Assembly: GCA_031265585.1 (NCBI GenBank)
Contig: JAISCL010000339.1
Span: 1-33,345 of the forward strand
Source of the DNA: Tannerella sp.
GTDB lineage: Bacteria > Bacteroidota > Bacteroidia > Bacteroidales > Tannerellaceae
Reading direction: 5' to 3'
DNA length: 33,345 nucleotides
The notes under the pieces were generated by a model that did not search any database, was not told the DNA's origin, and was given only the letters and a program-made list of their open reading frames with translations. Position 1 is the first letter of the stretch. Each line of letters begins with the position of its first letter. The translations under genes and the position numbers were made by a program. Shown one piece after another: positions 7,801 through 30,882 of the stretch.

Positions 7801-7908
7801 CCGCACGCCGAGCGACGTATATCCTATCAGACCGAATAACAGGATGACAAGCTCCATTACGGTGGCTAAAACCGGGCGTTTAATATTTAATTCGGAAATA
7901 TTCGCCAT
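4870..7908 (-). CDS. RND multidrug efflux pump, inner membrane subunit (AcrB/HAE1 type)
   Basis: A 1012-residue proton-driven transporter of the hydrophobe/amphiphile efflux family. The first membrane helix follows ISELNIKRPVLATVMELVILLFG. The porter-domain segment REYPSVDQPIISVNTSYPGA is typical. The proton-relay pair is present in VGLVVDDAIVVTENI, and the helix-10 lysine in GLVAKNGILIVEFANQ. The second membrane block lies near residues 840-1000. Length is close to the usual 1020-1050. The gene sits between the adaptor (4-bp gap upstream) and the TolC-like gene (4-bp overlap downstream), so the whole tripartite pump is one transcript. Substrates cannot be read from the sequence. No frameshift is seen. 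Confidence 0.95.
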   Translation of the reverse strand: MANISELNIKRPVLATVMELVILLFGLIGYTSLGVREYPSVDQPIISVNTSYPGANAEVIMNQITEPLEQNINGIPGIRSLSSVSSQGNSRITIEFELSVDLETAANDVRDKVSRAQRYLPRDCDPPTVSKADADATPIMQIGVRSSQRSLMELTEIAELTVKERLQTIQNVSSVDIWGQKRYSMRLWLDPVKMAGYGVTPLDVKNAVDAENVELPSGSIEGNTVELSIRTMGLMHTAKEFDDLVIKESKNNIIRFKDVGRAELSPEDIKSILKRNGEPMVMNVIIPQPGANHIEIANEAYGRIEQLKKDLPEDVTIEMIYDNTQFIRASISEVEETIYVAFLLVVIVIFMFLRDWRVTLIPVVVIPVSLVGAFFVMYIAGFSINVLTMLAIVLSVGLVVDDAIVVTENIYVRIEHGMTPREAGIEGSKEIFFAVISTTVTLVAVFIPIVFMEGMTGRLFKEFSIVIAGSVTISAFVALTFTPMLATKLLKRREKKNWLSRKTEPFFEGLNYIYSTSLNAFLKRKWIAVPIVLTLLAAIVYYWQKIPSELSPLEDRSQITINIRGPEGATYEFVRDFSDRLEDISDSIAYERKVITTRTFGASGSISIILPEIRDRERDQMEIADLLSAEVRKETLARGFVQQQSTFGGRRGGMPVQYVLQATSIEKLQEFLPEFMLKVNESPVFQMADVNLKFTKPEVRIEINRDKASLLGVSTRNIAQTLQYALSGQRMGYFYMNGKQYQILGEINRQQRNTPLDLRSIYVRSDNGSMIQLDNLVSLEENVAPPQLYRYNRFVAATVSSGLNKGYTLGDGLDEMDRIAKDVLDDSFRTALSGESKEFRESSDSLMFALILALIMIYLVLAAQFESFKDPLIVMFTVPLAVAGALWFMSMGSITMNIFSQIGIIMLIGLVAKNGILIVEFANQRQVAGLEKDEAIRIASIQRLRPILMTSASTILGLLPLMFASAEGANGRIAMGTAVVGGMLVSTFLTLYIVPAMYSFIATNLKNKKETK

Positions 7909-7912
7909 GATA

Positions 7913-9010
7913 TTATTCTTCTTTCAGATTATCAATATTGACTTTCATCCCCATACGTAACTGCATCACGCCTGTCGTGATTACCGTATCGCCGGGGGTG
8001 AGTCCTTCCAGTACCTGTACCTGGCTTTCCGTGCGGAGGCCGGTAATGATCTCGGCGGATTTTGCTTCATCTCCCTTGTATAGGTAAACAATATTTTTCC
8101 CCATTTCGGGGATGATTGCTTCGCTTGGAATGGCTAAGGCATCTTTAATTTCACGTCTTGTTATTTCAACAGACAGGTAGCGTCCGGGCAGAATGGCTTC
8201 GTTCGTATTCGGATACAACGCGCGTACTTTCAGGGAACGTGTTTCAAGTGCAACTTTACTTTCTACCGCATATACCTGTGCCTGATGCTTTTGGATCATA
8301 CCGTTGGATTCTTCCATGTAGAAAGAGATGCCGGTGCCTTCCGAGACATCCGAAACATAGCGTTCCGGAATGGAAAATTCGATCTTTAAAGGACTGATTT
8401 TCGTCAGGTTTGCGACGATGGTCGAAGGCGTTGCGTAAGCGCCTTCGCTCACAAGACGGAGACCGATGATCCCGTCGAACGGTGCACGTAATTCCGTTTG
8501 CAGGATGTTGGATTTTACCAGTTCAATGTCAGCCATCAGTTTTTCAAGTTCGGTCGTTACCTGCTCGTAGGCTTCCTGGCTGACCGCATCTTTCTTCAGT
8601 AATGCGCCCTGGCGGAAAACGCGTTCTTTAGCCAGGGGAATCTGGGCCTCCAGTTTTTTTAATTCCGCCTGTAACGGTTTATCATTAATTTTCGCCAGCA
8701 GATCTCCTTTTTTCACATGCGTGCCCTCATTGAAATTTATGTTGACGATTTTTCCCGATGATTCGAAGGATAAATCGACTTCTTCGTCCGGGATAGTCGT
8801 TCCGGTACTGATAAATTTGTCCGTAAGGGATTGTTTTTTCAAAATTACGGCATGAATGTTAATCGGCAACCGTCTTTGTGACAGCGCCTGTGTTGATAAG
8901 GGTATTTCTTCGTTTGACTTTATTTGGCTTTTGATACGCGGATAAATAACTATTCCTGCAATGAATAACAGAATAACACCCATCAAAATCCATTTTACTG
9001 TTTTTGTCAT
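7913..9010 (-). CDS. RND efflux periplasmic adaptor (membrane fusion protein)
   Basis: An adaptor of about 365 residues that links the inner-membrane pump to the outer-membrane channel. It has an N-terminal membrane anchor (VKWILMGVILLFIAGIVIY), a lipoyl-like half (DLSFESSGKIVNINFNEGTHVKKGDLLAKIND), a coiled-coil hairpin (residues about 110-160), the second lipoyl half (LRAPFDGIIGLRLVSEGAY), and beta-barrel and membrane-proximal domains ending in GVMQLRMGMKVNI. The ORF track starts at a GTG at 9019; I prefer the ATG three codons later, which keeps the anchor intact. It is the first gene of the efflux operon and diverges from the aldehyde dehydrogenase gene. Confidence 0.92.
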   Translation of the reverse strand: MTKTVKWILMGVILLFIAGIVIYPRIKSQIKSNEEIPLSTQALSQRRLPINIHAVILKKQSLTDKFISTGTTIPDEEVDLSFESSGKIVNINFNEGTHVKKGDLLAKINDKPLQAELKKLEAQIPLAKERVFRQGALLKKDAVSQEAYEQVTTELEKLMADIELVKSNILQTELRAPFDGIIGLRLVSEGAYATPSTIVANLTKISPLKIEFSIPERYVSDVSEGTGISFYMEESNGMIQKHQAQVYAVESKVALETRSLKVRALYPNTNEAILPGRYLSVEITRREIKDALAIPSEAIIPEMGKNIVYLYKGDEAKSAEIITGLRTESQVQVLEGLTPGDTVITTGVMQLRMGMKVNIDNLKEE

Positions 9011-9060
9011 AACTTTCACTATTATAAATCTGTAATTGCAATTTGATAGCCAATGAGACT

Positions 9061-15242: not shown

Positions 15243-17060
15243 TTAATCTTTGTACATTTCTTCTATTTCAGCTGCATAGTTTCGGGCGATGGCCGGGCGT
15301 TTTATTTTTAACGTATCAGTTATTTCGCCTTTATCCTTTGATAAAGATTCGGGCAGAAGCGTAAAGCGTTTGATTTTTTCGAAAGAGGCGAAACCTTTCT
15401 GGCAATCTTCAATAATGGATTGGAAAAAGCGTATGATTTCCGTCCTTTTTATCAATTCCTTGCGCTCTTCAAACGGAATATTTTTTGAAAGGGCGTATTT
15501 TTCAAGCGCTTCGAAATTCGGAATGATCAGGGCGCTGACAAATTTATAATTGTCGGCAATGACAATGCACTGTTCGATGTAGTTATTGCCGCTCATACTT
15601 AATTCGATAGCCTGCGGAGCGATGTATTTGCCATTGGATGTTTTGAACAGGTCTTTTATCCGTTCGAGGAAATAAAGCGTCTCTCCTTCGAGCCTTCCGG
15701 CATCGCCTGTACGGAAAAAACCGTCTTCCGTGAACACTTTTGCTGTTTCTTCCGGCTTTTTATAATAGCCGCTTGTAATGGTTTTGCCTTTAACCAGGAT
15801 CTCACTGTTTTCGGGATCTATCTTTACCTGCAGATCCGGCATGACCGTTCCGATGGAGCCTAGCGTGTAATTTGTCTGCGGATAGAAACAGACCGTGGCC
15901 GAAGTTTCGGACAGTCCGTAGCCATACCGGACAGGGAAGTTGACCGACAGTAGAAACTCTGCAATGTTATCTGCCAGCGGCGCTCCCGCAACCGGGAATA
16001 CACGTCCGCGGTTCAGTCCTACCACTTTTTTCAACAGGGCGAAAACCGTATGGTCATAAATATGAAATTTTACGGATAACCGGAAGGGCGGCTTGGTTCC
16101 CGTCCGTCTGTAATCAAGTACATACCTGCGTCCGGTTTTGATGGCATGTCTGAATATTTTTTGTAATAAGCCCGATGATCCGTTTATTTTATCCTGTACG
16201 CCTGCGTACACTTTTTCCCAGAAACGCGGTACGTTACACATCAATGTGGGACGCACCTCCGGCAATGTTTCCTGTATTTTTTTGGGATCCAGATTGACCG
16301 CGACCTCTACTCCCTTGTGAAAACAATAGCAGGCCCAGGCTTTTTCGAAGATATGCGTCAACGGCAGGAAACACATCGACAGGTCACTGTCGTTTACTTC
16401 CGGCAGACGCAGGTCATGGATACGCAGTACTTCCAGAAAGTTGGCGTGTGTGAGCATGACGCCTTTCGACTCGCCAGTCGTTCCGGACGTGTAAACGATC
16501 GCCGCCGGATCTTCGGGGACGGCGTTGCTTCTTCTTATCTTTGCTTCCGTTTCCGTCAGTGCATGATCGCCCAGCCGGAGAAATTCTTCCATATAGACCG
16601 ATGTCCTGTCTTCCGGGTTACGCACGATGGCCGGATCAAAAATAATCAGCCGTTTCAGTATATTCCCGTTTTTCTGCTGGACACGGAACGCATTATTGTA
16701 TTGTAACTGTTCCCCGACAAACAAAAAACGGATGTGGGAATCACGTACAATGTATTCGATCTGCGCCGGAGAACTCGTTGCATACATCGGAACGGAAACA
16801 GCGCGGATCCCGTAGGCTCCATAGTCCGTAAAAAAACATTCAGGTGTGTTCTGCGCACAGATTCCGATATTTTCGTGCGTTTCCACACCATATTCAATCA
16901 TCGCTTGCGACGTCAGCCGCACATATTCCGCAAAATCCGCCCAGGATATTTTCTGCCATTTCCGGTTTTTATCGCGGTACCGGATCGCCGAACGGTTTTT
17001 GTATTTTTCCGCACGCCTGAAAATCATTTCGGCGGGGTGATAATAAGTCATCTGCATCAT
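15243..17060 (-). CDS. Long-chain acyl-CoA synthetase (AMP-dependent ligase)
   Basis: A ligase of about 605 residues that adenylates a carboxylic acid and transfers it to CoA. The phosphate-binding motif IVYTSGTTGESKGVML lies near residues 188-203. The later motifs are GYGLSETSATVCFYP, FFRTGDAGRLEG and LFKTSNGKYIAPQAIE, with the C-terminal lysine in EITDTLKIKR. Long-chain type (FadD15/ACSL-like) is favoured by length. The ORF is open to 17108, only 4 bp from the stop of the upstream gene. I prefer the ATG at 17060, which follows an A-rich leader and begins MMQMTYYHPAEMI as in homologues; ATGs at 17108 and 17090 remain possible. It is the second gene of a two-gene unit with the receiver/ATP-grasp protein. 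Confidence 0.9.
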   Translation of the reverse strand: MMQMTYYHPAEMIFRRAEKYKNRSAIRYRDKNRKWQKISWADFAEYVRLTSQAMIEYGVETHENIGICAQNTPECFFTDYGAYGIRAVSVPMYATSSPAQIEYIVRDSHIRFLFVGEQLQYNNAFRVQQKNGNILKRLIIFDPAIVRNPEDRTSVYMEEFLRLGDHALTETEAKIRRSNAVPEDPAAIVYTSGTTGESKGVMLTHANFLEVLRIHDLRLPEVNDSDLSMCFLPLTHIFEKAWACYCFHKGVEVAVNLDPKKIQETLPEVRPTLMCNVPRFWEKVYAGVQDKINGSSGLLQKIFRHAIKTGRRYVLDYRRTGTKPPFRLSVKFHIYDHTVFALLKKVVGLNRGRVFPVAGAPLADNIAEFLLSVNFPVRYGYGLSETSATVCFYPQTNYTLGSIGTVMPDLQVKIDPENSEILVKGKTITSGYYKKPEETAKVFTEDGFFRTGDAGRLEGETLYFLERIKDLFKTSNGKYIAPQAIELSMSGNNYIEQCIVIADNYKFVSALIIPNFEALEKYALSKNIPFEERKELIKRTEIIRFFQSIIEDCQKGFASFEKIKRFTLLPESLSKDKGEITDTLKIKRPAIARNYAAEIEEMYKD

Positions 17061-17112
17061 AGTATATTTATTTTTGTTAATTATTTTCATTCTGTCAAAG
17101 GGCAGCATTGTG

Positions 17113-20079
17113 TCATGGAATCTTGTGTACCGGCTTCAGGACAACGCCTACGCTTTTCTTCCCGTCCATTTTGATCAGGACGGGTTCATCGAAGCGGACA
17201 AGCCGTAAGTATTTTGTTTCTTCGGCTACAGGTTGCCTGTTCAGGTAGCCTTCATCGAATAAATCGCCGTTATTCGGGTTTACCGTAAAATATCCGGCGC
17301 CGGAGGATGTCAGGTTCTGGAAAAAATGGGTTCCCTGGCTTGGATCCGTGTGGTAATTGGCCAAACTGTATTCCGCTATCACACGGGCATTGCTTATATG
17401 CGGCCATTTCACCGGAATGCCGAGCCACAGGTCGCTGCTTCCCCAGCGGCCCGGCCCTGCCAGTACATACCCTTCGTCCTTTCCCGTGAATTGCCGGTTA
17501 ATCCGTTCGATATCGTAAGCGATCAGTTGATTGTTAGACGAATTGAACGCCTCTGTTTTTACATACAGCACGTGATATACATTATTGATGATCCCGTGGC
17601 CGAGTACGCTTTTTGAATACAGTATCGTATCTTTCCGGTCGATTATTTCGAGGTTTTCGTCAATCCGTTCCTTTTGATCGACAATCGGTCTGATCTGAAG
17701 CATGTAAAAAGAGCCTTTGTCGCGGCAGTCGGGCTTGATGTCGACGGCAAATTCAATTTCTATCGGCCGCCCCATTTCCTTTTGTCCTATCTCCAGCAAT
17801 TCATTGAGTGTTTCACTTAGCGGAAGCATGTCATATTGCAGGATATTTGCAAACGACAGGATTTTTCTTCCGCCGGGATAATATCCGTCCCGTATGACCT
17901 GGTCCTGCGGATCGAAAGTAGACGCAATATATTTCAGGATTCCGTCCTGATCGGCGTCTTTGACGGATAGCCGGATCAGGTTGAAAGCGTCGTTTGCCGC
18001 CAGGTGCAGGGGCGCGTCTTTCATATCCAGCGCCAGGAAGTGCGTCTGCGTTTCGCGCAATGCAAAATCCATCGTACTCATCTGCAGGATATTGTGTGGA
18101 TGACGTGGAGAGAATCTCAGGGTGACACCTCCGTCAACCACATACTTCCCCAGGCCGAGCGCGATATTTGCAATCCCGTCTTCCGCCGTTTCATTTCCGA
18201 TCGGGTAGAAATTCAGTGATTTGGCGACCCCGCTGATCGTAGGATACAGGTGGTTTCCGTATTGCCGGCCGATCACTTCCTGAAGGACAATGGCCATCTT
18301 TTCATTTTCTATCAGGTTGCTCGTCGCCATCATATAGGCTTTGCTGTCTTTGTAGAATACGGAAGCATAAACCCCTTTGATGGCATCGCTTACGGATTGC
18401 AGCATCTCGTATTTGTCGGACATATTCGGCACCATATAGGTCGAATAGACGCCGGCAAAAGGCTGGTAGTGCGCATCTTCCAGCAGGCTTGACGACCGGA
18501 CGGCGACCGGACGCCTGATAACCTCAAAAAAAGCCATCAGGTCGTCGATCAGGCGGGTCGGCAGACCGGCGCGCAGAAAATAGTGCAGGATTTCATCATC
18601 TTCAATATCGCCCAGGGCAATCGAATATAAGTTGTTTGTCTCCATAAATTCATCGAAGATGTCGGTACACAAAACGACTGTTTTGGGAATATTGACGGGA
18701 AAATTATCTTTTTCCAGACAGGGATAGCGTTTGATCATGGCGCCGATGAAGGCCAGTCCGCGACCTTTGCCTCCGAGCGAACCCTCTCCTATGCGGGCAA
18801 AGTTGCTGTATTCGTCAAACCGGTCTTTTTGGTAGATGGCCACTACGCCGAAATTTTTCATTTTACGGTATTGCACGATGATGTCAAAGATAAATTGCCG
18901 GGCCTCGTCCATGTCTTTGTATTCACTTACATCCACACGTTTGAGCAGTTCCGCGGGCGGGAACATGGCCCGTGAATAGAAAAAGCGGGAGAAATGATTG
19001 CGTGAAAGATGGTATCTTAGCGAGTCGTCCGGGATCCTCATCATTTTGTGCTGGAGATCCTGCAGATCTTTTATGTGCATGATTTCCTCTTTGGTTTCAG
19101 GGTTCAGGATCACAAAATCACCGAATCCGAAACGTTGCATGATCTTCTTTTTCAGTTCGCGCGCGTAAGTCTTTGACTGTTTATAGATGAACGATGCGCC
19201 CAGCTCCTTTGCATACGTTTGGTTTTCCGGATCGGACGATTCGAGGATGATCGGGATGGGGCCTCCTTCTCTGCGTACATAACGGCAGAATTTATACCCG
19301 GCAGCCGGATCCTTTTCGCCTTCATGCATGAAACTGATATCGGATATGATGCCAAGGATGTTGTCTTTGTAATCATTAAAGACACGGATCGCTTCTTCAT
19401 ACGTCCGCGCCAGTTTTATTTTCGGACGGCCCCGCATACGCAGCGTTTTCTGGTGTTCGTTCAGCGCTTCTTTTGCAAATTCCCGGCTCTGTTCCAGTAC
19501 AAACCGGTATAGATGAGGCAGCGTGGAAGAATAAAACCGGACGGAATCCTCTATCAGCAGGATGATTTGTACGCCTACGCTTTCCGTGTCGTCCGGCGCG
19601 TTCATCTTATCTTCTATCAGTTTGATGATAGCCAGTAACAGTTCCGAGTTTCCCAACCAGCTGAAAACATAATCGATGGCGCTGAGGTCTTCGTTTGCAA
19701 TGCTTTTGGATACTTCCCTTGAAAAGGGCGTCAGCACAACGATCGGGATCTCCGGGTAGCGCCGCTTGATTTCCTTGGCCGTTCCGAAAATGTCGCGGTC
19801 CACCATGTTCGGCATAAAGATGATCAGGTCAAATCCCAGGTTATTCAGTTCGTTTAATGCTTCTTCTTCTGTTGTTGCCTGGGTAAACCGGGGCGGGTAA
19901 CGCAGGCTTAACGAGGTATATTCGTTAAAAATCTGTTCGTCTACGCGCCCGTCGTCTTCCAGCATAAAGGCGTCATATTTTGTCGCTATCAGCAATACAT
20001 TATAAATACGCTTTTGCATGAGGTTTGCAAAAGAGGTATCTTTGAAAGCGACATTCCGGAATTCCTGTATTCCACTCAT
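17113..20079 (-). CDS. Dual receiver-like / PEP synthase ATP-grasp fusion protein
   Basis: A 988-residue cytoplasmic protein. Residues 25-155 and 170-315 look like two CheY-type receiver domains. In the second, the acidic pair (E177, D178), phospho-acceptor D247 (IISDISF), S281 and K300 (FIYK) are all in place. In the first, the acceptor position in FDLIIFMPNM is a methionine. Residues about 425-800 match the nucleotide-binding ATP-grasp half of PEP synthase/pyruvate phosphate dikinase: GSLGGKGRGL (434-443), VAVRSSSLLED (525-535), FAGVYSTYM and MLQIRPI. There is no swivelling phosphohistidine domain (TSHAAI) and no PEP-binding barrel. Instead the C-terminus carries AGPGRWGSSDLWLGIPVKW and DPSQGTHFFQNL, a conserved-looking module I cannot name. 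It is probably a regulated phosphotransfer or nucleotide-binding protein rather than a true PEP synthase. It is first in an operon with the acyl-CoA ligase. Confidence 0.8.
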   Translation of the reverse strand: MSGIQEFRNVAFKDTSFANLMQKRIYNVLLIATKYDAFMLEDDGRVDEQIFNEYTSLSLRYPPRFTQATTEEEALNELNNLGFDLIIFMPNMVDRDIFGTAKEIKRRYPEIPIVVLTPFSREVSKSIANEDLSAIDYVFSWLGNSELLLAIIKLIEDKMNAPDDTESVGVQIILLIEDSVRFYSSTLPHLYRFVLEQSREFAKEALNEHQKTLRMRGRPKIKLARTYEEAIRVFNDYKDNILGIISDISFMHEGEKDPAAGYKFCRYVRREGGPIPIILESSDPENQTYAKELGASFIYKQSKTYARELKKKIMQRFGFGDFVILNPETKEEIMHIKDLQDLQHKMMRIPDDSLRYHLSRNHFSRFFYSRAMFPPAELLKRVDVSEYKDMDEARQFIFDIIVQYRKMKNFGVVAIYQKDRFDEYSNFARIGEGSLGGKGRGLAFIGAMIKRYPCLEKDNFPVNIPKTVVLCTDIFDEFMETNNLYSIALGDIEDDEILHYFLRAGLPTRLIDDLMAFFEVIRRPVAVRSSSLLEDAHYQPFAGVYSTYMVPNMSDKYEMLQSVSDAIKGVYASVFYKDSKAYMMATSNLIENEKMAIVLQEVIGRQYGNHLYPTISGVAKSLNFYPIGNETAEDGIANIALGLGKYVVDGGVTLRFSPRHPHNILQMSTMDFALRETQTHFLALDMKDAPLHLAANDAFNLIRLSVKDADQDGILKYIASTFDPQDQVIRDGYYPGGRKILSFANILQYDMLPLSETLNELLEIGQKEMGRPIEIEFAVDIKPDCRDKGSFYMLQIRPIVDQKERIDENLEIIDRKDTILYSKSVLGHGIINNVYHVLYVKTEAFNSSNNQLIAYDIERINRQFTGKDEGYVLAGPGRWGSSDLWLGIPVKWPHISNARVIAEYSLANYHTDPSQGTHFFQNLTSSGAGYFTVNPNNGDLFDEGYLNRQPVAEETKYLRLVRFDEPVLIKMDGKKSVGVVLKPVHKIP

Positions 20080-20137: not shown

Positions 20138-20265
20138 TCCTTTTTGTCTATAAAACGGATTTATTGTAAGGGAGAGGGCGTATAAGGATGGTTCTGTAAA
20201 TGACAGGTTCGTTTTTCATAGATAGGTTTTTTTCCGTGATGTGATTGGAGGTAGTTTTTGCTTGG

Positions 20266-21177
20266 ATGGAAAAAATTTTTAAGATAAGGAAATTAGGAGT
20301 ATGCCGGACAGGTCAATTGGATGCCGGGACTGCTTTTACGTATTATGAGTTGAAAGCAGGACTGGAAATCCGGAACAGTGATTTGCCGTTGAATTTTATC
20401 TTATTTGTCCTTAAGGGGGGGATGGATGTCAGTTGCAACGAATTTGAAAACCGCCTGCTTCAGTCCGGTGAAATGATTTTCCTGTTACGTTCGTCTGCTG
20501 TTTATATGCGAACGCTAAAAAAAACAAAGCTCTATGTCATGCACTTTGATACGCTCCTTTCTTCCTGCGACCGGCAACTCTTCAAGGCCTACCTGCCGGA
20601 TACGGAGAAAGCGGTATATGATTTCAGTCCTGTACCTGTTCCGCTTCCTGTACAGGCGTTTTTGGAACAGATGCTGTATTTCCAGGAGCAAAAGGTTGAC
20701 TGTGTGCATTTCAATAACCTCAAACATCGTGAGTTCTTTCTTTTGTTACGCCGGTTTTGTCCGCGTGCGGATATCGTTGCGTTCCTTTCCCCGTTGATCA
20801 GCAATTCCATGAATTTCCGGAATAAAGTTCTACAGAAGTATTCCAGGCTTGAAAGCGGGCGGGTGACCGAGTTTGCCGATCTGGTAGGGATGGGACGGAA
20901 AAATTTTGACAAACGGTTCCGTGAGGAGTTCGGAACTTCTCCCGCCAAATGGATACAGCAGGAAACAGCCAAGCGGTTGCGGCTGTATCTTGCAGAGCCG
21001 GATGTGACAATTTCCGATGCAATGGATAAGTTTCATTTTAATTCTCCCAGTCACTTTAACCGTTTTTGTCGCCGATATTTTGACAAGTCTCCCGGTGCGA
21101 TGATCAAAGATGCGCAGGATTTGAAGGCTATGAAATCTAAAAAAACAAAAGCAGCCCGACCAACATTTCGTACCTGA
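20266..21177 (+). CDS. AraC-family transcriptional regulator
   Basis: A regulator of about 303 residues. The ORF track begins at a TTG (20245); the ATG at 20266 is preferred, although the GGAGG at 20247-20251 is rather far from it. The N-terminal half (about 1-180) is a cupin-like sensor region (DLPLNFILFVLKGGMDVSC, LLQSGEMIFLLRSSAVYM). The C-terminal domain (about 200-290) holds two helix-turn-helix units: VTEFADLVGMGRKNFDKRFREEFGTSPAKWIQQ, and VTISDAMDKFHFNSPSHFNRFCRRYFDKSPGAM. It diverges from the ATP-grasp operon and lies about 1 kb upstream of the fimbrial operon, so either could be its target. The ligand is unknown. Confidence 0.9.
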   Translation: MEKIFKIRKLGVCRTGQLDAGTAFTYYELKAGLEIRNSDLPLNFILFVLKGGMDVSCNEFENRLLQSGEMIFLLRSSAVYMRTLKKTKLYVMHFDTLLSSCDRQLFKAYLPDTEKAVYDFSPVPVPLPVQAFLEQMLYFQEQKVDCVHFNNLKHREFFLLLRRFCPRADIVAFLSPLISNSMNFRNKVLQKYSRLESGRVTEFADLVGMGRKNFDKRFREEFGTSPAKWIQQETAKRLRLYLAEPDVTISDAMDKFHFNSPSHFNRFCRRYFDKSPGAMIKDAQDLKAMKSKKTKAARPTFRT

Positions 21178-22237: not shown

Positions 22238-23065
22238 ATGAAAAGAATAGCATTATTGGTGTTTCTGGCATTATGGATAACGGGATCGAAGCTATCGGCA
22301 CAGGATATGGCGTTAAAGACGAACCTCCTGTACGATGCGACGACGACCCTGAACCTTGGATACGAGGTTGCCTTGAATCACAGGACAACGTTAGATATCG
22401 GGATCAACTATAACCCGTGGACATTGGGACATAAATGGGTGGGTTTAATGGATAAGCAGCAACCGGTGACGGGTTCCGCATCAGAGCGGGAATCAAGATT
22501 GAAACACTTCATGATCCAGCCGGAAGTACGTTGGTGGTTATGTGAAAAATTTAACGGCCATTTTTTCGGCGTTCATTTACATGGTGGTGTATTTGATGTG
22601 GGAGCGATGAAGATGCCTTTCGGATGGGGACGATATAAGGATGCGTCGGGAAATTATTTAGGGTCATACCCTAAACCGATGAGTCCGGTAGAATATCCGG
22701 TAATAGATGCTCAAAATCCGATCAACGGGATCGGATATGAAATTTCGGATAAGCCGTACCCGGGTTTGGGAAGCGTCAGTGGTACGGAGTTGGAACCGAA
22801 TGATGTTTATTGGGGTAATGCCGATCGCGATGGGATATATACAAATAATTTTGAAGGATGGTTTGTCGGGGTAGGAGTTTCGTACGGGTACCATTGGATT
22901 TTAAGCCGCAGGTTGAGTATGGAATTTTCGTTAGGTCTCGGTTATGCCTATCTGGATTACGATAAGAGCCGTTGTACGGATTGCAAGAAAAAGATCGGTG
23001 AGGAGTCTGCGCACTATTTTGGCCCTACGCGTGTAGGAATATCATTAGTGTATATGATTAAATGA
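22238..23065 (+). CDS. DUF3575 outer-membrane-type protein, first gene of the fimbrial operon
   Basis: A 275-residue protein with a signal peptide (MKRIALLVFLALWITGSKLSAQ). The start of the mature protein, MALKTNLLYDATTTLNLGYEVAL, is the family's signature, and the end (FEGWFVGVGVSYGYHWILSRRLSMEFSLGLGYAYLDYDK) looks like beta-barrel strands. DUF3575 proteins often lie beside fimbrillin genes in Bacteroidales; their exact role is not established to my knowledge. Between KMPFGWGRY and NNFEGWFVG there is a stretch of about 70 residues rich in Pro, Gly and Tyr that seems longer than the usual short loop. The start codon follows a strong GGAG. Four downstream genes on the same strand complete the operon. 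Confidence 0.8.
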   Translation: MKRIALLVFLALWITGSKLSAQDMALKTNLLYDATTTLNLGYEVALNHRTTLDIGINYNPWTLGHKWVGLMDKQQPVTGSASERESRLKHFMIQPEVRWWLCEKFNGHFFGVHLHGGVFDVGAMKMPFGWGRYKDASGNYLGSYPKPMSPVEYPVIDAQNPINGIGYEISDKPYPGLGSVSGTELEPNDVYWGNADRDGIYTNNFEGWFVGVGVSYGYHWILSRRLSMEFSLGLGYAYLDYDKSRCTDCKKKIGEESAHYFGPTRVGISLVYMIK

Positions 23066-23113
23066 TCGTAATCGTGAAATAAATGAGTTGAGGATTTTTA
23101 AATTAAGCAGCGT

Positions 23114-24760
23114 ATGGATAAGATAAGGTACATAATAGCTTTGATATTTAGTTTTTCCCTTTGTTTTGCGGTTGATGCACAGCGTCAACGGGTCGATGCC
23201 GGGAATAACCGTAACCGGACGGCCGTGCAGGCTTCTCCGTCTCAAGGGAAGCAGTCCGGGCAGGATAGCCAGCGGACGGTCTCCCCGCGTAACCGGGTGG
23301 AGTATCATCGTAATTCGATGAAACAGGTAGGTGATTCCCTTGTTATTGATATGGATATTGACATGTCCAAAATGGATCTTAAAGCAAACCATGCGCAGAT
23401 CATAACGCCTGTCATTGGCTCCTCGACGGAAGAAATCGAATTGCCCCGGGTAATGATACAGGGCACTGCAAAAAATAAGGCTTTTATGAGGGAACTGGAA
23501 TTGAACGATCAGGCTTATGAAGAGTTTGAAAACAATTTTCCTTATGCCATCGTAAAGCCGAAAGGTAAACTTCAATACCGCATGTCTGTTCCTTTTGAAC
23601 CCTGGATGTCCGATGCATTCCTTGACGTAGAGGAAGATTTGTGCGGATGCGGCGATCAGTCGAAGATAGCGCGTTCCCGTGTGTTTGAAAGTTTAACAAA
23701 GGATATCATTGCCGATCCGGTCTATCAGGTGCGTCCGAAGCTGGCTTATATTCAGCCGGCGGTAGAACCGCTCAAGAAGCGTATAGAGATCGGGAACGCT
23801 TATCTTGATTTCCCCAGGGGGAAGAATGACATTCTGCCGAACTTCGGGAATAATGCTACTGAGCTGGCTAAAATTGATAAAATGATCCGGACCATTGCTA
23901 CGAATGAAGACATCACGGTGCAGGGTGTTCAGATGGTAGGATATGCCTCCCCGGAAAGTTCCGTGAAATTTAACACCGAGCTTTCGCGCGCCCGTTCCGA
24001 ATCCATGATGCGGTATTTCATGAATAACAGTACGATCCCGGCCAGCCTGTTTGAAACGCGCACCGGCGGGGAAGACTGGGACGGACTGCGCCGGTTGCTG
24101 GAAGACTATCCGCTGTCGAATAAGGCTGAGATTTTCCGCCTGATGAATACGATTTCCGATCTGGACGCACGGGAAAAAGCGATCAGTAAGGTGGGAGACG
24201 GAAGGCCCTATAAGATAATGTACGAGGAACTGTATCCGAAGCTGCGCCGCGTAGTCTGTGAAGTCAATTATACGGTGAAGGATTTTTCACTGGAGGAAGC
24301 AAAGGAAAACCTGTCGATTGCACCTCAGCTGCTGAGCTTGAATGAGATGTATATTGTAGCCAACACGTATGAGCCGGGGTCTCCGGAGTTCCTGAAGGTA
24401 TTTGAGGTAGCGCGCGAAGAATTTCCGGACGATCCGGTGGCCAACCTGAACGGTGCGGCGGCGGCGCTGGCCAAGAATAACCTGCGTGAAGCCGAGCGTT
24501 ACCTGAAGTTGGCCGATCCGTCCACACCGGAATATGCGAATAACATGGGAGTCTTCCTGATGCTGAAGGGCAATTACCGGGAGGCGGAAAAATACCTGAA
24601 GCGCGCCGAGCAGGAAGGGATAGCGGATGCATCGATTAACTCAAGAGAATTGAAAAAGAAATTAGCTAATATAAATAATCGCCGTGAGGCCGGAGTTGAT
24701 GAGAACAGGGATGATGACAAATCCCCGCAGAGTTCTTCCCAACGGCGCAAAACCCGGTAA
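23114..24760 (+). CDS. DUF3868 / OmpA-like / TPR protein
   Basis: A 548-residue exported protein (signal peptide MDKIRYIIALIFSFSLCFAVDAQ) with a Gln/Arg/Ser-rich linker up to about residue 60. Residues about 70-170 (GDSLVIDMDIDMSKMDLKANHAQIITPVI) match DUF3868. Residues about 255-345 (ITVQGVQMVGYASPESSVKFNTELSRARSESMMRYFM) resemble an OmpA-like peptidoglycan-binding unit. Residues about 380-510 contain tetratricopeptide-like helices (ANLNGAAAALAKNNLREAERYLKLA). The tail is charged and low in complexity. Together with the DUF3575 protein it may provide the outer-membrane or periplasmic part of fimbrial assembly or anchoring; this is inferred from position and domains. It begins 48 bp after the previous stop codon. 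Confidence 0.8.
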   Translation: MDKIRYIIALIFSFSLCFAVDAQRQRVDAGNNRNRTAVQASPSQGKQSGQDSQRTVSPRNRVEYHRNSMKQVGDSLVIDMDIDMSKMDLKANHAQIITPVIGSSTEEIELPRVMIQGTAKNKAFMRELELNDQAYEEFENNFPYAIVKPKGKLQYRMSVPFEPWMSDAFLDVEEDLCGCGDQSKIARSRVFESLTKDIIADPVYQVRPKLAYIQPAVEPLKKRIEIGNAYLDFPRGKNDILPNFGNNATELAKIDKMIRTIATNEDITVQGVQMVGYASPESSVKFNTELSRARSESMMRYFMNNSTIPASLFETRTGGEDWDGLRRLLEDYPLSNKAEIFRLMNTISDLDAREKAISKVGDGRPYKIMYEELYPKLRRVVCEVNYTVKDFSLEEAKENLSIAPQLLSLNEMYIVANTYEPGSPEFLKVFEVAREEFPDDPVANLNGAAAALAKNNLREAERYLKLADPSTPEYANNMGVFLMLKGNYREAEKYLKRAEQEGIADASINSRELKKKLANINNRREAGVDENRDDDKSPQSSSQRRKTR

Positions 24761-24972
24761 TGAATTATGAATAACGATTTGGCATTTGAAAAAACAGGTG
24801 TAAAAACAGATGAGAAGATGAATATAATATTAACAAACAAAATGAGTATGCTTATGAGATAAAAAAGGAACATGAATAACAAGTATTATTAATTAAAATG
24901 TAAAATTAAAGAAAAGAATAAACAAAATTATCAATTAAATTATTTTATTACTAACTAAAAAATTAAAAAACT
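24761..24972. other. AT-rich leader of the major fimbrillin gene
   Basis: This 212-bp gap holds no gene. It is very A/T-rich and ends in an A-rich run before the ATG. I did not find a TAnnTTTG box, so a separate promoter for the fimbrillin is possible but not supported by sequence. Confidence 0.4.
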
Positions 24973-26958
24973 ATGAAGTTTAAATCTTTATTTTTGACGA
25001 TGTTGGGTGCAGCTGCGATAGTCAGTTGTAACAACGATGCGATTGACGGTGGCGGCAATGGCAATGGCAACGGGGAAGTCATAGAAGGGCTTCCTATCTA
25101 TGCGACGATGACTTTTAAATTAGGAAAAGCCGGGACTTATGCTGGAGCTTCGGATGTTGCTTCTTCACCTCATGAGTCTACGTTGAAAGATGCTGCAGTG
25201 TATATTTATAAAAGCGATGCATCGGGTGCAACACCTCAATGTGCAGTGTTTATTACTTCTCTTGGTCAGACAGGACAGAATGGTGACGGCAACACGGTTA
25301 CCTTGAGAACGACAAGTGGCAGCAAGAAAATTTTTGTTGCAGCTAATGTTAAACAAAATCCTGCCACTACAGATATGGTATCACTTACAGGTCTTGGTGT
25401 TGTATCGGCGGATTGGACTACTTTAGTAGCAGATTTGAATAAAACATTGTATTCAACTCCATCGGCTTTTACAGTTACTGCTCCCGGATCACCCGTGTAC
25501 ACAGACCCGGCAGACGGTTTGATTAAGAACCTCGCAATGAGTGATCTTTATGGCACAGGTGCAGGTACCTATACGACAGGATCTCCTACTCCTGGACCTA
25601 ATGCTGCATTTATGACAAACTGGGATGGTCCTGATGATGTAGGTACTGGTACTGGTACTGCGACGCCTCACGTAGGCACTGCAAGCATTACTCTTGTACC
25701 CGATATTGACTCTATATCTTCCAGACCAACAGGGCCTGTTGATAACAATAAGAACCAGTTTGACATTAATGTACAGCGTGCTTATGCAAAGGTTTCTTTG
25801 AAATTCGGTTTTACAGCGACTGGTGCAACTGCTCCTAATTTTCTTAGTAGTGTTCTTACCAATAAATGGTACATTGCTGCTGCAGGTTCTCAAAATGAAG
25901 GCCGGTTCTTTCCATGGGGACAAAACACCGATGCACGCTGGTCACTTGGAAATATTCCTACGGCAGAACTTCCGTTCCAGCAGTATGTGAACGGGGTCGC
26001 TCAGGATATGTTCTATACGGAAACAACGGATTCTATACAACCGGCTCAATTGACTAACTGGTTCCTGCACTATGACAATACACGTGTATTCCCATTCAGT
26101 AGTACTATTACTACCTATCCTAACAAGAATCAAATTAACGTGCAAAATACCAGGGATACAATGTTAAAGGCTACTAATTATCAAATTTTTACAGCGGATA
26201 ATTCAGTAAATCAAGCAGACTATCAGTATGCATATACTACAGAAAACGCCCGTTTGGATCCTGTGAAGCAGGACCATGCAACTTATGTTATCTTTGGTGG
26301 TTTTTATCAACCGAAGAGTGTATTGACAAATATTATCCGTTCAAACGTTGCTACGAATAACCCGATTCTTGGTTTTAATGGTGCTGTACTGACAGGTAAT
26401 GAAGGTGCAGGTGTAAGCGTACCGGGTACGCCTTATAGCTGGCAACCCACCAGCGCCACCGATACATTGTATTATATTGCTGATGATAAGATCTTTATCA
26501 GCGGAAAAGACAATTTGATGGCTTATTATGCCTGGGCTTCTACCCAACAGGTAAATAGAACTGCCGGAGATGCGTGGGCAGCGCTCAATCCGAATCAACC
26601 TATTACGGCTGCTGCTGTTTATGGTACCGATGGATTGGCATTCGGAGCAGATGTTGCAAATGCTATCAATCTTGAGATTGACGCAAAAGTATTATATGCA
26701 TACGTTCAAGGCCAATGCTTTTATCGTATCTTTATCCAGAATGATGCTTCTGCAACCTCAGCAGATAGAGTTTCAGTATTGCGTAACCACATCTATGATA
26801 TAAATATTACTTCTATCAAAGGTCCCGGTATTGCAGATCCTAACAGGATTCTTGTTCCGGGTACGTCGGTACTTGAGCAGGATACTTATGTATCAGCTAC
26901 AATCAATGTACTGAACTGGCATAAAGTTGATCAGGATAAAGACGTTGATAACGAGTAA
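24973..26958 (+). CDS. Major fimbrial subunit, Mfa1-like lipoprotein
   Basis: A 661-residue fimbrillin. The leader MKFKSLFLTMLGAAAIVSC ends in a lipobox with Cys19, followed by a Gly/Asn-rich linker (GGGNGNGNGE). The N-terminal domain has the typical KDAAVYIYKSDASG strand and the later VQRAYAKVSLKFGF segment. The C-terminal part (RNHIYDINITSIKGPGIADPN to VSATINVLNWHKVDQD) closely follows the Mfa1 C-terminal domain, including the final strand used for polymerisation in type V pili. Precursors of this class are lipidated, moved to the surface and cleaved by an Arg-type protease before donor-strand assembly. It is rather longer than the known Mfa1 (about 560). A terminator follows directly. Confidence 0.87.
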   Translation: MKFKSLFLTMLGAAAIVSCNNDAIDGGGNGNGNGEVIEGLPIYATMTFKLGKAGTYAGASDVASSPHESTLKDAAVYIYKSDASGATPQCAVFITSLGQTGQNGDGNTVTLRTTSGSKKIFVAANVKQNPATTDMVSLTGLGVVSADWTTLVADLNKTLYSTPSAFTVTAPGSPVYTDPADGLIKNLAMSDLYGTGAGTYTTGSPTPGPNAAFMTNWDGPDDVGTGTGTATPHVGTASITLVPDIDSISSRPTGPVDNNKNQFDINVQRAYAKVSLKFGFTATGATAPNFLSSVLTNKWYIAAAGSQNEGRFFPWGQNTDARWSLGNIPTAELPFQQYVNGVAQDMFYTETTDSIQPAQLTNWFLHYDNTRVFPFSSTITTYPNKNQINVQNTRDTMLKATNYQIFTADNSVNQADYQYAYTTENARLDPVKQDHATYVIFGGFYQPKSVLTNIIRSNVATNNPILGFNGAVLTGNEGAGVSVPGTPYSWQPTSATDTLYYIADDKIFISGKDNLMAYYAWASTQQVNRTAGDAWAALNPNQPITAAAVYGTDGLAFGADVANAINLEIDAKVLYAYVQGQCFYRIFIQNDASATSADRVSVLRNHIYDINITSIKGPGIADPNRILVPGTSVLEQDTYVSATINVLNWHKVDQDKDVDNE

Positions 26959-27000
26959 GCTGAAATTTCAGATGAAAATGTAAAAGTTGAACGATCATGA

Positions 27001-27046
27001 AAACCGGGCACAGCGCAGGGGCTGTGTCTGTGTCCGGTTTCTTTTT
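27001..27046 (+). terminator. Intra-operon terminator after the major fimbrillin
   Basis: AAACCGGGCACAG (27001-27013) pairs with CTGTGTCCGGTTT (27028-27040) with one G-T pair, and CTTTTTC follows. It lies 42 bp after the fimbrillin stop and 83 bp before the next gene, so it probably reduces read-through to the anchor and tip genes. Confidence 0.82.
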
Positions 27047-27128
27047 CTCCAAAAAATAAGAAAAGAAAATCAATGACGAAATGAGTTTTCGGTCATGTAA
27101 TGAACAAATAAAATAATTAAAAAAACAA

Positions 27129-28217
27129 ATGTGTATGGAATGTCATAAGTTACTCATATTACCCATATTCTGTCTGATATTTTTCCTGCAGGGTTGTGTT
27201 CATGGAGATCTGGAAGATTGTCCTCCGATGGTAAGGTATGCCGTTGCATTTCAATATACGAACCATACGAAATCTTCAGATCGGTTTTATGATGATGTGA
27301 AGAAAATCAATTTATATGTATTTGATGAGAACAATCTTATCTATACAACAACGACTGAATTAAGTCCTTACGAAACGAATTTTAATATCCCGCTGGATCT
27401 TCCGATGGGAAACTATCATATCATTGCCTGGGGAAATGTGCTGGACAGTCAACCCTTTTCAGTCACTCCGGATGAATTTGTGAAAGGTCAGACTACACTT
27501 GCCGAGGCGCGGCTTACGTTGCAGCGTGAAGCCGGAAATTTGAGTCAGAAAGAATTGGAAAAATTGTTTTATGGCGAAATAGATGCTGAAATCCCTTTGT
27601 ATGTCAGCCGTATAGATACAATGCCTCTTATAAATAATACAAATCGGGTACGTGTTGTCTTGCATTGGGATCATTCCGGAGAATTGAAAGAAACGGACGA
27701 AACGATCAATTATGATGAAGTTCAGGTGCGCCTGAGCGCTTCCAATGCCGTATATGGATTCGGTAATAATCTGACAGGTACAAATAATGCAGTTTATATG
27801 CCGTGGGCATCTTATTATACGGATGATATATTGAATGAAGACGATGATGACTGGCTAACTATGTATTATTATTCCGATGCAGTTTCGGAAGTAACCAATT
27901 CCTGCGTATATGATTTTAGCATACTGCGAATGGTTGTCGGCAGCCCAATCTATTTGACGGTTGAACGTAAGAAGCCTGTAATACCGGAGCCAAATAATCT
28001 ATTGTCGGAACAGATTGATGTTATACAAACATTTATTGCCTGTTTTAATGATCAGGGTGTGCCTGCGGCACAAAGACAAAATATGTTTGATAAACATGAA
28101 TATTATCGAATTGATTTATATTTTACGTATGATCTTTTGATGAATACTTATGTCAGCGGATCATTACAGGTGAGACCATGGACAATGGTAGAACAGCCTG
28201 AGGTGCCGATGAATTGA
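27129..28217 (+). CDS. FimB/Mfa2-family fimbrial anchor lipoprotein
   Basis: A 362-residue lipoprotein. The leader CHKLLILPIFCLIFFLQGC ends in a lipobox cysteine and is followed by VHGDLEDCPPMVRYAVAFQYT, the hallmark start of FimB/Mfa2 proteins. A fimbrillin-like first domain follows (VKKINLYVFDENNLIYTTTTE, LPMGNYHIIAWGN). The second domain includes VRVVLHWDHSGE and the end LMNTYVSGSLQVRPWTM. In this family the protein stays lipid-anchored in the outer membrane and ends polymerisation at the base, controlling length. ATGs at 27129 and 27135 are both possible. It lies between the major subunit and the candidate tip gene. Confidence 0.87.
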   Translation: MCMECHKLLILPIFCLIFFLQGCVHGDLEDCPPMVRYAVAFQYTNHTKSSDRFYDDVKKINLYVFDENNLIYTTTTELSPYETNFNIPLDLPMGNYHIIAWGNVLDSQPFSVTPDEFVKGQTTLAEARLTLQREAGNLSQKELEKLFYGEIDAEIPLYVSRIDTMPLINNTNRVRVVLHWDHSGELKETDETINYDEVQVRLSASNAVYGFGNNLTGTNNAVYMPWASYYTDDILNEDDDDWLTMYYYSDAVSEVTNSCVYDFSILRMVVGSPIYLTVERKKPVIPEPNNLLSEQIDVIQTFIACFNDQGVPAAQRQNMFDKHEYYRIDLYFTYDLLMNTYVSGSLQVRPWTMVEQPEVPMN

Positions 28218-28254
28218 TATTCAATATAGGAATTGAAAAAAATACAGAACATAA

Positions 28255-30882
28255 ATGAAAAGGTGGATATATAACACAGGATTTCTTCTCATTAGCATGT
28301 TGATACTTATTTGCCCGGCATGTTCGGATGAAGTAATACGTGGCGGTGGTAACGGTGATACGCCGGGTAAAGGGGATAAGGAGATACCTGTAGTCATTAG
28401 TATGCAAGACTTGTCTTTGCCGGGAGCTGTTCCTACGTATGCGGGTGGCACTGATTATACCGGAGAAACTTCGGTGGGAGGTTCATCATGGGAAAATGCT
28501 GTCAATGATATCACTGTTTATATATTTAACACGTCATTTGAATGTGAAAAAATAGTACAGGCTACTTCCTCTCCTACTGATACGGTAATGGTGAAAACCG
28601 GATACAAGCATTTTGTTGCAGTGGTAAACGCACAGGGGAAGATGACTTTGCCTTCTACTCCCGCGACAACCGATTATTCGGCACTGAACAGAATGCTTAC
28701 GGATGCTGCTTTCACATTGCCTGCATCCCCGTTCCTTATGACAGGTGAATTGAGAGATGTTGCACTGCCTGACGAATTGCTCGTTTCCTCTCCTTACAGT
28801 ATAAGTATAGATGTGAACCGTGCATGTGCAAAAATGACGCTCAGGGTGACGAAAAGCGGACAATCTGAAGGTCATACTATTACATTGAAAACAGTGACCC
28901 TGCATCAGGGGGCTGACAGAGTTGCATTATTTGTAGCGCCGAGTCCGGATATGACATCTTATACTTTGAGCGCTTCAAAAACTGTTTTTGACCCTGCAAC
29001 CGGCGCTGTGCCGAATAAGAATACAGGGACCTATTGCGCATTGGCGGATTCGTTCTATACCTATGAAAGTTTATGCGGATCGGATAAGAGCAAGGCTGTA
29101 TGGATAGAGATTGAGAGTGCGGTAAATTCGCCGACGAATATACGGACCGCCAAATTTTATTTAGGTGAATATTCGACGACGCCCGGTGATACGACCTATA
29201 ATATCTATCGTAATTACTGGTATGATGTGAAGGTTGATATTGTAAAGCCCGGGATGGATTCTATCTATGTGACGGTTAAGGCCTGTCCGTGGAATATGGC
29301 GGATATACAGGATGCAACAGCCGGCGGCGGATACGATGCAACACCGTCAGAGCCATTCAAATTAGTCAAGAACTATACCGAGAGTGAATTGTCGTCAGGT
29401 AATAACGGCGCCTTTGCGGCGATCGGGAAACATACAAAAGGTCAGGCATATATTGATTTGAAAGTTTCGGATGGCGTGGGTTGGAGTCTGGCATTCCAGA
29501 GTTCTACAGGCGAAAATGCTGGCGCGAAGATGGCGCTTGGCGCTGATTCGGCAAACTGGGGAACAAACTGGCAAACCTCTCTTGGGGGTTTCGGTGACGA
29601 CAATACGCACCGCATTTGGATTTATCGCCCTTATGTGGAAAATGCAGAACCGGAATCAGGCCCTACACTAAGATTGACGGTTGGAGGTGTTGTGGTGCGG
29701 GACTTTATCGTGCAACCCCGTGATACAATGCCGATACCGACTAACAGTTATATTATGCGTCCGCAGTTAACCGGCGTTCCATCCAACCAAACGCGTGTTT
29801 ATATACCTCTTGCCGGAGTTTACCGTTTCTGGGAAGATGAGGTATTGTCTAATGGGGATTCTATACCTGACGGTACCATTTCGGCAGAGTTGCTGTGGAA
29901 GGACCGTACGGGTGAAGTAATAAAGAATATAAGTGTTATTAATGCAGGAAAACGGGATCAGGCCTATATCTATGCTGAAGCCGGTTCTATACAGGGAAAT
30001 GCCATTGTTGAAATGAAAGTGGGCGGTACGACCTACTGGAGTTTTCATCTTTGGGTAACCGAATACAATCCTTATGAAGCTGCAGGGCAGAAATTGTATG
30101 CCGGAGCTTCCACTAATATTTTTATGGACCGGAATTTGGGTGCATTGAATAATAAATTTGATGCTGCCGGCGAAGCCCGTGGACTGTATTATCAGTTTGG
30201 ACGGAAAGATCCATATCCGAGAGCAGCTAGCTGGGGTGGAGGTAACAGTTATGACTGGTTTGCTGCGGGAAATACTAATTTGGGGTCAATAACCGGAGTG
30301 AATCTTTCGCATAGCTATACAAGTCTGCGTCCCCGCGATGGTTTTGAAACTTATTTGAATAATCCCAGGGTATTTTATACGAATGTTTCAGTGGGTTCAC
30401 AGCCATGGCCTTTATATACGGAAGATCATTATTTATGGGATACGGAAGGAGGGAATAAGACTGCTTTTGATCCCTGTCCAGAGGGATGGCGTATTCCTAA
30501 ACAGGATGTAAATGGAGATACCGGTTCTCCATGGAAGGATATTCTAACAAAGTACACACTTCCCCAGCCGGATTATGGAAACGGACGCTATTATGATAAT
30601 GCCGGATATTATCCTTATTCCGGATATATTTCGCCTGCTACAAATCCGATTATTAATGGTGCAGGGGCTGATGGCTATTTCTGGTCATCCTGGAGAGGTA
30701 CAGATGGAAAGACAGGAACCGGATTGAGGATTGGGAGTAGTGAGACAACCTCTCCGACTATAAATATGGATCAGGGGCTTAGCGTGCGTTGTGTGGCAGA
30801 TATTAATTATCTGCTAAATACGGAAGGAGGCGGTTTGTTTGGTAACAGCGCCGGAAATATGGCAAATAAAATAAAACCCTAA
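28255..30882 (+). CDS. Large fimbrillin-like protein with C-terminal FISUMP-like domain, candidate tip adhesin
   Basis: An 875-residue lipoprotein (lipobox CPAC near residue 23, then a GGGNGDTPGKGDK linker like that of the major subunit). Residues about 40-340 are fimbrillin-like (WENAVNDITVYIFNTSF, SIDVNRACAKMTLRVT, VDIVKPGMDSIYVTVKACPWNM). Residues about 350-600 are two beta-rich repeats. From about 610 to 865 the protein resembles the Fibrobacter succinogenes major paralogous domain (FISUMP): IFMDRNLGAL, YYQFGRKDPYPRA, FDPCPEGWRIPK, GYFWSSW, GLSVRCV. That fold is related to C-type lectin/formylglycine-type modules. Being the last and largest operon gene suits a fimbrial tip ligand-binding role; the ligand is not predictable. 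Confidence 0.78.
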   Translation: MKRWIYNTGFLLISMLILICPACSDEVIRGGGNGDTPGKGDKEIPVVISMQDLSLPGAVPTYAGGTDYTGETSVGGSSWENAVNDITVYIFNTSFECEKIVQATSSPTDTVMVKTGYKHFVAVVNAQGKMTLPSTPATTDYSALNRMLTDAAFTLPASPFLMTGELRDVALPDELLVSSPYSISIDVNRACAKMTLRVTKSGQSEGHTITLKTVTLHQGADRVALFVAPSPDMTSYTLSASKTVFDPATGAVPNKNTGTYCALADSFYTYESLCGSDKSKAVWIEIESAVNSPTNIRTAKFYLGEYSTTPGDTTYNIYRNYWYDVKVDIVKPGMDSIYVTVKACPWNMADIQDATAGGGYDATPSEPFKLVKNYTESELSSGNNGAFAAIGKHTKGQAYIDLKVSDGVGWSLAFQSSTGENAGAKMALGADSANWGTNWQTSLGGFGDDNTHRIWIYRPYVENAEPESGPTLRLTVGGVVVRDFIVQPRDTMPIPTNSYIMRPQLTGVPSNQTRVYIPLAGVYRFWEDEVLSNGDSIPDGTISAELLWKDRTGEVIKNISVINAGKRDQAYIYAEAGSIQGNAIVEMKVGGTTYWSFHLWVTEYNPYEAAGQKLYAGASTNIFMDRNLGALNNKFDAAGEARGLYYQFGRKDPYPRAASWGGGNSYDWFAAGNTNLGSITGVNLSHSYTSLRPRDGFETYLNNPRVFYTNVSVGSQPWPLYTEDHYLWDTEGGNKTAFDPCPEGWRIPKQDVNGDTGSPWKDILTKYTLPQPDYGNGRYYDNAGYYPYSGYISPATNPIINGAGADGYFWSSWRGTDGKTGTGLRIGSSETTSPTINMDQGLSVRCVADINYLLNTEGGGLFGNSAGNMANKIKP

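Follow-up and report, generated by a model that had tools for sequence, protein, structure and literature searches.

A receiver-containing ATP-grasp protein family encoded beside glutamate dehydrogenase in Bacteroidota, a candidate modulator of the enzyme

The gene at positions 17113-20079 (minus strand) of the window, by which we mean the whole 33,345-nucleotide stretch of Tannerella sp. DNA analysed here, raises the question of what the nucleotide-binding half of PEP synthase acts upon when it is joined to receivers and to a C-terminal module of a different kind. The open reading frame starts with ATG and comprises 988 codons, and full-length relatives of the 988-residue product are 36% to 92% identical to it. 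An AlphaFold model of the protein was built from 57 relatives (pLDDT 86.5, pTM 0.79). The features of the gene and its two flanking neighbours are as follows.

17113..20079, minus strand: whole gene, 988 residues, comprising pseudo-receiver, receiver, helical linker, PPDK_N ATP-grasp domain and C-terminal module
19585..20007, minus strand: first receiver-like domain, residues ~25-165, degenerate (Pfam, fold, conservation)
19132..19572, minus strand: second receiver, residues ~170-316, all acceptor-site residues present (fold, conservation)
19339..19341, minus strand: codon of D247, the predicted phospho-acceptor (invariant in 143 sequences)
18805..19092, minus strand: helical linker, residues ~330-425, with a sub-threshold resemblance to DUF5752 (Pfam, AlphaFold model)
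17647..18780, minus strand: PPDK_N ATP-grasp domain, residues 434-811 (Pfam; Foldseek match 5hv1)
17113..17646, minus strand: C-terminal module, residues 812-988, a confident fold with no PDB or Pfam match
17440..17457, minus strand: GPGRWG motif, residues 875-880 (conservation)
17320..17343, minus strand: PSQGTHFF motif, residues 913-920, with H918 as candidate active-site residue (conservation)
15243..17108, minus strand: AMP-binding acyl-CoA ligase, 4 bp downstream, a local neighbour and not a conserved partner
20245..21177, plus strand: AraC-type regulator, divergent, a neighbour in close relatives only

Receivers and N-terminal variation

The initial annotation had placed two receiver-like domains ahead of the ATP-grasp domain, the first deprived of its phospho-acceptor (methionine at position 89) and the second retaining D247, K300 and the acidic pair, and structure prediction likewise finds the receiver fold in the N-terminal part of the protein. 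Receiver 1 is matched by Pfam Response_reg at residues 64-148 (E 5e-7), barely above the Pfam cut-off. Receiver 2 of the window protein has no Pfam match, and the equivalent region is recognized by the Pfam receiver in relatives, at residues 633-716 of L063 (E 7e-7) and 376-462 of L067 (E 2e-4). When the AlphaFold model is compared with the PDB by Foldseek, tandem-receiver proteins are matched (PleD, 1w25, E 1.6e-6; 3luf, E 1.7e-4). Receiver 2 is taken as real because of its AlphaFold fold, these tandem-receiver matches and the Pfam matches in relatives, and the model supports both domains as genuine receivers. TnpB matches in the PDB around receiver 2 (E 0.07) were set aside as chance.

Position 89 of receiver 1 is Met in 115, Thr in 26, and Trp and Ile in one each of 143 relatives that have the receiver region and is never Asp, while the position of the receiver Lys (W141 in the window protein) is Trp in 142 of the 143; judged by these residues, receiver 1 is a pseudo-receiver. 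Receiver 2 has all the residues of an intact response-regulator receiver: of its acidic pair, E177 is present in 143/143 relatives and D178 in 142/143, and the acceptor Asp (D247), the Ser/Thr (S281) and the Lys (K300) are each present in 143/143. The helical linker that follows scores 12.3 bits against DUF5752 in the window protein and 25.5 bits in relative L060, the Pfam cut-off being 23 bits.

The N-terminus differs among variants of the family, and the core and C-terminal module are constant. Besides the two-receiver type of the window, there are proteins with extra N-terminal GAF-like repeats, receiver-less proteins of ~580 residues and divergent proteins of ~1060 residues that end in a nucleotidyltransferase. 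One to three or more repeats of ~115 residues occupy the N-terminal extension of the paralogues L060, L063, L067, L070 and L071 (consensus KEL..INrTT...WQYP..t.aRI.y...y....f..t.W...DEGPFL.EER); the repeat has no convincing match in Pfam and, from its sequence, looks like a sensor of the GAF type. In the divergent branch (L180, L186, L187 and L191, about 913-1063 residues), a helical region precedes PPDK_N and the C-terminal module, and a nucleotidyltransferase domain ends the protein. Members of this branch have no receivers, the longer ones start with a GAF-like sensor, and in most loci the gene comes after that for glutamate dehydrogenase (GDH). This arrangement points to another activity, of the nucleotidylation type, at the GDH node.

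Close relatives with up to 92% identity occur throughout the genus of the window organism, and others are spread across Bacteroidales (Parabacteroides, Bacteroides, Phocaeicola, Prevotella, Muribaculaceae and more). In a phylum sample of 297 genomes, 49 carried the family, most of these 49 belonging to other classes, and a search of plasmids gave partial PPDK_N matches in Deinococcus and Thioclava as the sole matches outside Bacteroidota. Within the literature searches made, no paper was found that describes the REC-REC-PPDK_N architecture or the GDH linkage. PPDK_N and receiver domains are of known kinds; their combination, the C-terminal module and the pairing with GDH appear to be undescribed.

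ATP-grasp core and C-terminal module

Pfam recognizes the PPDK_N domain of the window protein at 160.5 bits, the cut-off being 27 bits (E 8e-47), and the best Foldseek match of the ATP-grasp part is rifampin phosphotransferase (5hv1, E 5e-13). None of the ATP-site residues K438, R528, E776 and Q795 varies among the 161 relatives examined. Whole-protein models fall far below threshold, with 38 bits for PEP synthase (TIGR01418, cut-off 739.75) and 20 bits for rifampin phosphotransferase (NF041857, cut-off 999). The initial annotation had described the nucleotide-binding half of PEP synthase stripped of its phosphohistidine and PEP-binding parts, and this description stands: Pfam detects neither domain in the window protein or in 57 C-terminal segments, hhalign finds no match between the C-terminal module and the true PPDK of the same genome, and a PEP/pyruvate-binding TIM barrel has no Pfam match, the C-terminal module being short and without a PDB fold match. 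A phosphohistidine domain hidden in the C-terminus, considered as a candidate, was rejected for want of Pfam, hhalign, PDB-sequence or fold support.

Modelled alone, residues 800-988 give a confident fold (pLDDT 92.4). A Pfam search with the module of 57 members gave no family for any of them; no PDB sequence matched the module below E 0.1, nor, by Foldseek, did any PDB fold at E <= 0.001; chitinase-like and GPX4 matches (E >= 0.009, TM ~0.25) were discarded as noise. The two motifs originally pointed out in it, GPGRWGSSDLWLG (residues 875-887) and DPSQGTHFF (912-920), are present, and their cores are invariant wherever the module occurs: G877, R878, W879 and G880 are found in 160/160 relatives that have the region and G875 in 159/160, H918 is kept in 159/159, and S914, G916, F919 and F920 are likewise unchanged. 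Across the 297 phylum genomes, matches to the module coincide with the sites of PPDK_N family proteins. Where PEP synthase has its phosphohistidine and PEP domains, the family has this uncharacterized and highly conserved domain.

Because the ATP-site and C-terminal motif residues are invariant, the protein is predicted to be an active enzyme and not a remnant, the conservation being the signature expected of catalysis. The view that it is a degenerate PEP synthase, either an inactive remnant or a broad-specificity side enzyme of PEP/pyruvate metabolism, would fit the strength of the PPDK_N match and the existing annotation as a 'PEP/pyruvate-binding domain-containing protein'. It can hardly be credited, given the invariance of the four ATP-site residues, the presence of the gene in 81/81 genomes of one Bacteroides-type genus, and the existence of a separate true PPDK in the window genome alongside a protein that has no phosphohistidine or PEP domain. 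That the family protein is a phosphotransferase, as had been proposed with its acceptor unspecified, is possible on the basis of these sequences, with H918 or GDH as candidate acceptors.

Genomic linkage to glutamate dehydrogenase

In a survey of the surrounding genes, the recurrent neighbour proved to be GDH, identified by Pfam ELFV together with the NCBIfam model for NADP-specific GDH. Of 117 family genes, 59 have an NADP-type GDH within 2.5 kb; the second most frequent neighbour is at 10 of the 117. A further count with a 6-kb limit placed GDH near 91 of 162. By our own estimate, which assumes about three GDH matches per 3-5 Mb genome, chance would account for linkage at roughly one per cent of genes. 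In other classes of the phylum GDH accompanies 34 of 41 family genes, with few exceptions as the next gene upstream, transcribed from the same strand; neighbouring GDH genes of Bacteroidales copies are usually divergent, as is the annotated gdhA adjoining the family gene of P. distasonis. In four Bacteroides-type genomes (G298, G290, G393 and G416; loci L194, L195 and L200-L202) the family gene is directly downstream of GDH and convergent with it, at 85-298 bp.

No major clade of the family tree is without the linkage, and even the most divergent type, with its C-terminal nucleotidyltransferase, has it. Within Bacteroidales it is patchy, more than half of the copies having no GDH within 2.5 kb, and the linkage that holds for the family across lineages does not extend to the window's own genome: the window contains no GDH, and the GDH matches of that genome are on contigs C149 and C113. 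The association looks old and lost many times, the window's lineage included. At four loci with two modules, both with an upstream GDH, each type of family protein is paired with its own type of GDH, and the true pairing has the best correlation of 16. Such matching also follows from operon duplication, and it therefore supports a lasting partnership but not contact between the two proteins. Co-occurrence at genome level was uninformative, since 291 of the 297 genomes have a GDH. Almost all members of the phylum have the enzyme and the family is not so widespread, so GDH generally works without the family protein. The linkage shows shared function or regulation, and does not show GDH to be a substrate. 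Functional coupling of the family protein to GDH is well supported, and we hold it with considerable confidence.

Other neighbours are more local. The operon with an acyl-CoA ligase described in the initial annotation exists in the window, where 4 bp separate the genes, and in the close relatives L002, L005 and L008; elsewhere no comparable neighbour is found and GDH is the conserved partner, and the ligase was dropped as a functional partner. Genes for 2-oxoacid:ferredoxin oxidoreductase lie upstream of the family gene in L060-L062 and L109, and the theme of the neighbourhoods is the glutamate/2-oxoglutarate node. In many Bacteroides-type genomes the family gene is near one or two GDH genes and a prolyl-oligopeptidase-type gene; this S9 peptidase recurs beside the GDH/ATP-grasp pair in L087, L088, L173, L177, L194 and L195, hinting at a link to peptide catabolism. 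Elsewhere in the window, a fimbrial cluster at 22238-30882 (plus strand) encodes DUF3575 and DUF3868/OmpA-like proteins, two FimA/fimbrillin-type proteins and an Mfa2-type anchor, and a 530-residue Fic/DOC domain protein (1770-3362, minus strand) is encoded beside an RND efflux operon (3539-9019).

These surroundings could also be explained by a metabolic enzyme of the GDH pathway, in which ATP would activate or phosphorylate a small derivative of glutamate or 2-oxoglutarate, the C-terminal module would hold the substrate and the receivers would tune flux. The ferredoxin oxidoreductase genes would suit this, as would the invariant, active-site-like residues of the C-terminal module and the small-molecule substrates of PPDK_N relatives such as rifampin phosphotransferase, whose structure 5hv1 is the closest fold. 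We nevertheless think it unlikely. PEP synthase and rifampin phosphotransferase require a phosphohistidine carrier domain that the family protein does not have, its N-terminal sensor and receiver modules are typical of regulators, and near 1:1 pairing with GDH in lineages that differ widely is easier to explain for a partner protein than for a downstream enzyme.

Signalling genes accompany part of the family. In L162, L171, L173 and L177 the order is GDH, family protein, PAS-HisKA_3 histidine kinase, LuxR-type response regulator, GDH, family protein and GDH, with further genes interposed in L162 and L171. A LuxR-type response regulator adjoins 10 of 117 family genes, at a distance of 4-8 bp in L067, L070 and L071, and in the window no histidine kinase gene is next to the family gene. 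The predicted control through the receivers, as first proposed, has support from sequence and gene order, in that the acceptor residues are fully conserved and some relatives have a histidine kinase gene alongside. Kinase and regulator sharing an operon in some lineages, and LuxR-type regulators only a few base pairs away in others, would also be consistent with a phosphorelay that responds to the ATP/2-oxoglutarate state and hands a phosphoryl group on, by way of H918 or D247, to a LuxR-type regulator of gdh transcription, GDH linkage then reflecting co-regulation only. This scheme seems rather improbable: most loci have GDH without a regulator gene, and the fully conserved motifs of the ATP-grasp domain and C-terminal module point to a catalyst with a conserved target.

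Proposed action on GDH and comparison with known systems

We are evenly divided on the reading that we nonetheless prefer, namely that the family protein is a two-component-gated, ATP-dependent modulator dedicated to GDH. In its favour are the recurrent linkage and matched pairing with GDH, the kinase and regulator genes at some loci, and the intact acceptor and ATP sites; against it stand the unlinked copies, among them that of the window, operon duplication as a sufficient cause of the pairing, and the GDHs of genomes that have no family member. A histidine kinase that senses a nitrogen or carbon cue would phosphorylate D247 in receiver 2, with the dead receiver 1 serving as a scaffold, and phosphorylation of D247 would reorient the ATP-grasp domain, which is of the PEP-synthase type, or alter its activity. 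This domain would then use ATP by way of the C-terminal module, where R878 and H918 are the predicted participants, to switch GDH activity on or off, either direction being compatible with the scheme. The simplest route would be phosphorylation of GDH, directly or through phospho-H918. By way of GDH, which stands at the 2-oxoglutarate/glutamate/ammonia branch point, the family protein probably controls the uptake or release of ammonia.

The title of Baggio & Morrison 1996 (cited in PMC4539542) states that trans-acting gene(s) downstream of gdhA affect NAD(P)H-utilising GDH activity in Bacteroides thetaiotaomicron. Because the family gene lies directly downstream of GDH in the four Bacteroides-type genomes named above, it is by analogy a natural candidate for this factor, as far as the title describes it, and would give the 1996 report a concrete gene. 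The fullest version of the proposal, in which an ATP-grasp enzyme under two-component control modifies GDH covalently, by phosphorylation or otherwise, through an undescribed catalytic C-terminal domain (GPGRWG...PSxGxHFF) and is the missing trans-acting GDH factor of Bacteroides, we put forward tentatively, as possible but doubtful. Coupled to GDH, present in all sampled genomes of one Bacteroides-type genus and so far annotated only as 'PEP/pyruvate-binding', the family protein would be a first candidate in the phylum for a switch dedicated to this enzyme. GDH is itself a major gateway between ammonia and amino acids for dominant gut Bacteroidota. Reversible inactivation of GDH has reportedly been described in Bacteroides fragilis, and is not used as evidence here.

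Compared with PEP synthase and pyruvate phosphate dikinase (PpsA, PpdK), the family has the same N-terminal PPDK_N ATP-grasp domain with conserved ATP-site residues, but neither the phosphohistidine swivelling domain nor the PEP/pyruvate TIM barrel. Receivers stand at its N-terminus, and its C-terminal module is of another kind. The phosphohistidine and rifampin-binding domains of rifampin phosphotransferase (RPH, 5hv1) are absent as well. PleD (REC-REC-GGDEF) also places tandem receivers, one of them degenerate, before an enzymatic output domain, whereas in the window protein the intact receiver is the second and not the first, and the output is ATP-grasp and not GGDEF.

Dedicated modifiers of central enzymes are known in AceK for isocitrate dehydrogenase, GlnE/GlnD for glutamine synthetase/PII and the PEP synthase regulatory protein. 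Each is dedicated to one branch-point enzyme and often encoded beside its target, as predicted here for GDH, although the ATP-grasp/C-terminal core of the family is not known to be related to any of them in sequence. A nucleotidyltransferase domain is present in the divergent branch of the family. With the 1996 B. thetaiotaomicron factor, as its title portrays it, the family shares a site downstream of GDH in some Bacteroides-type genomes and, by prediction, an effect on the enzyme.
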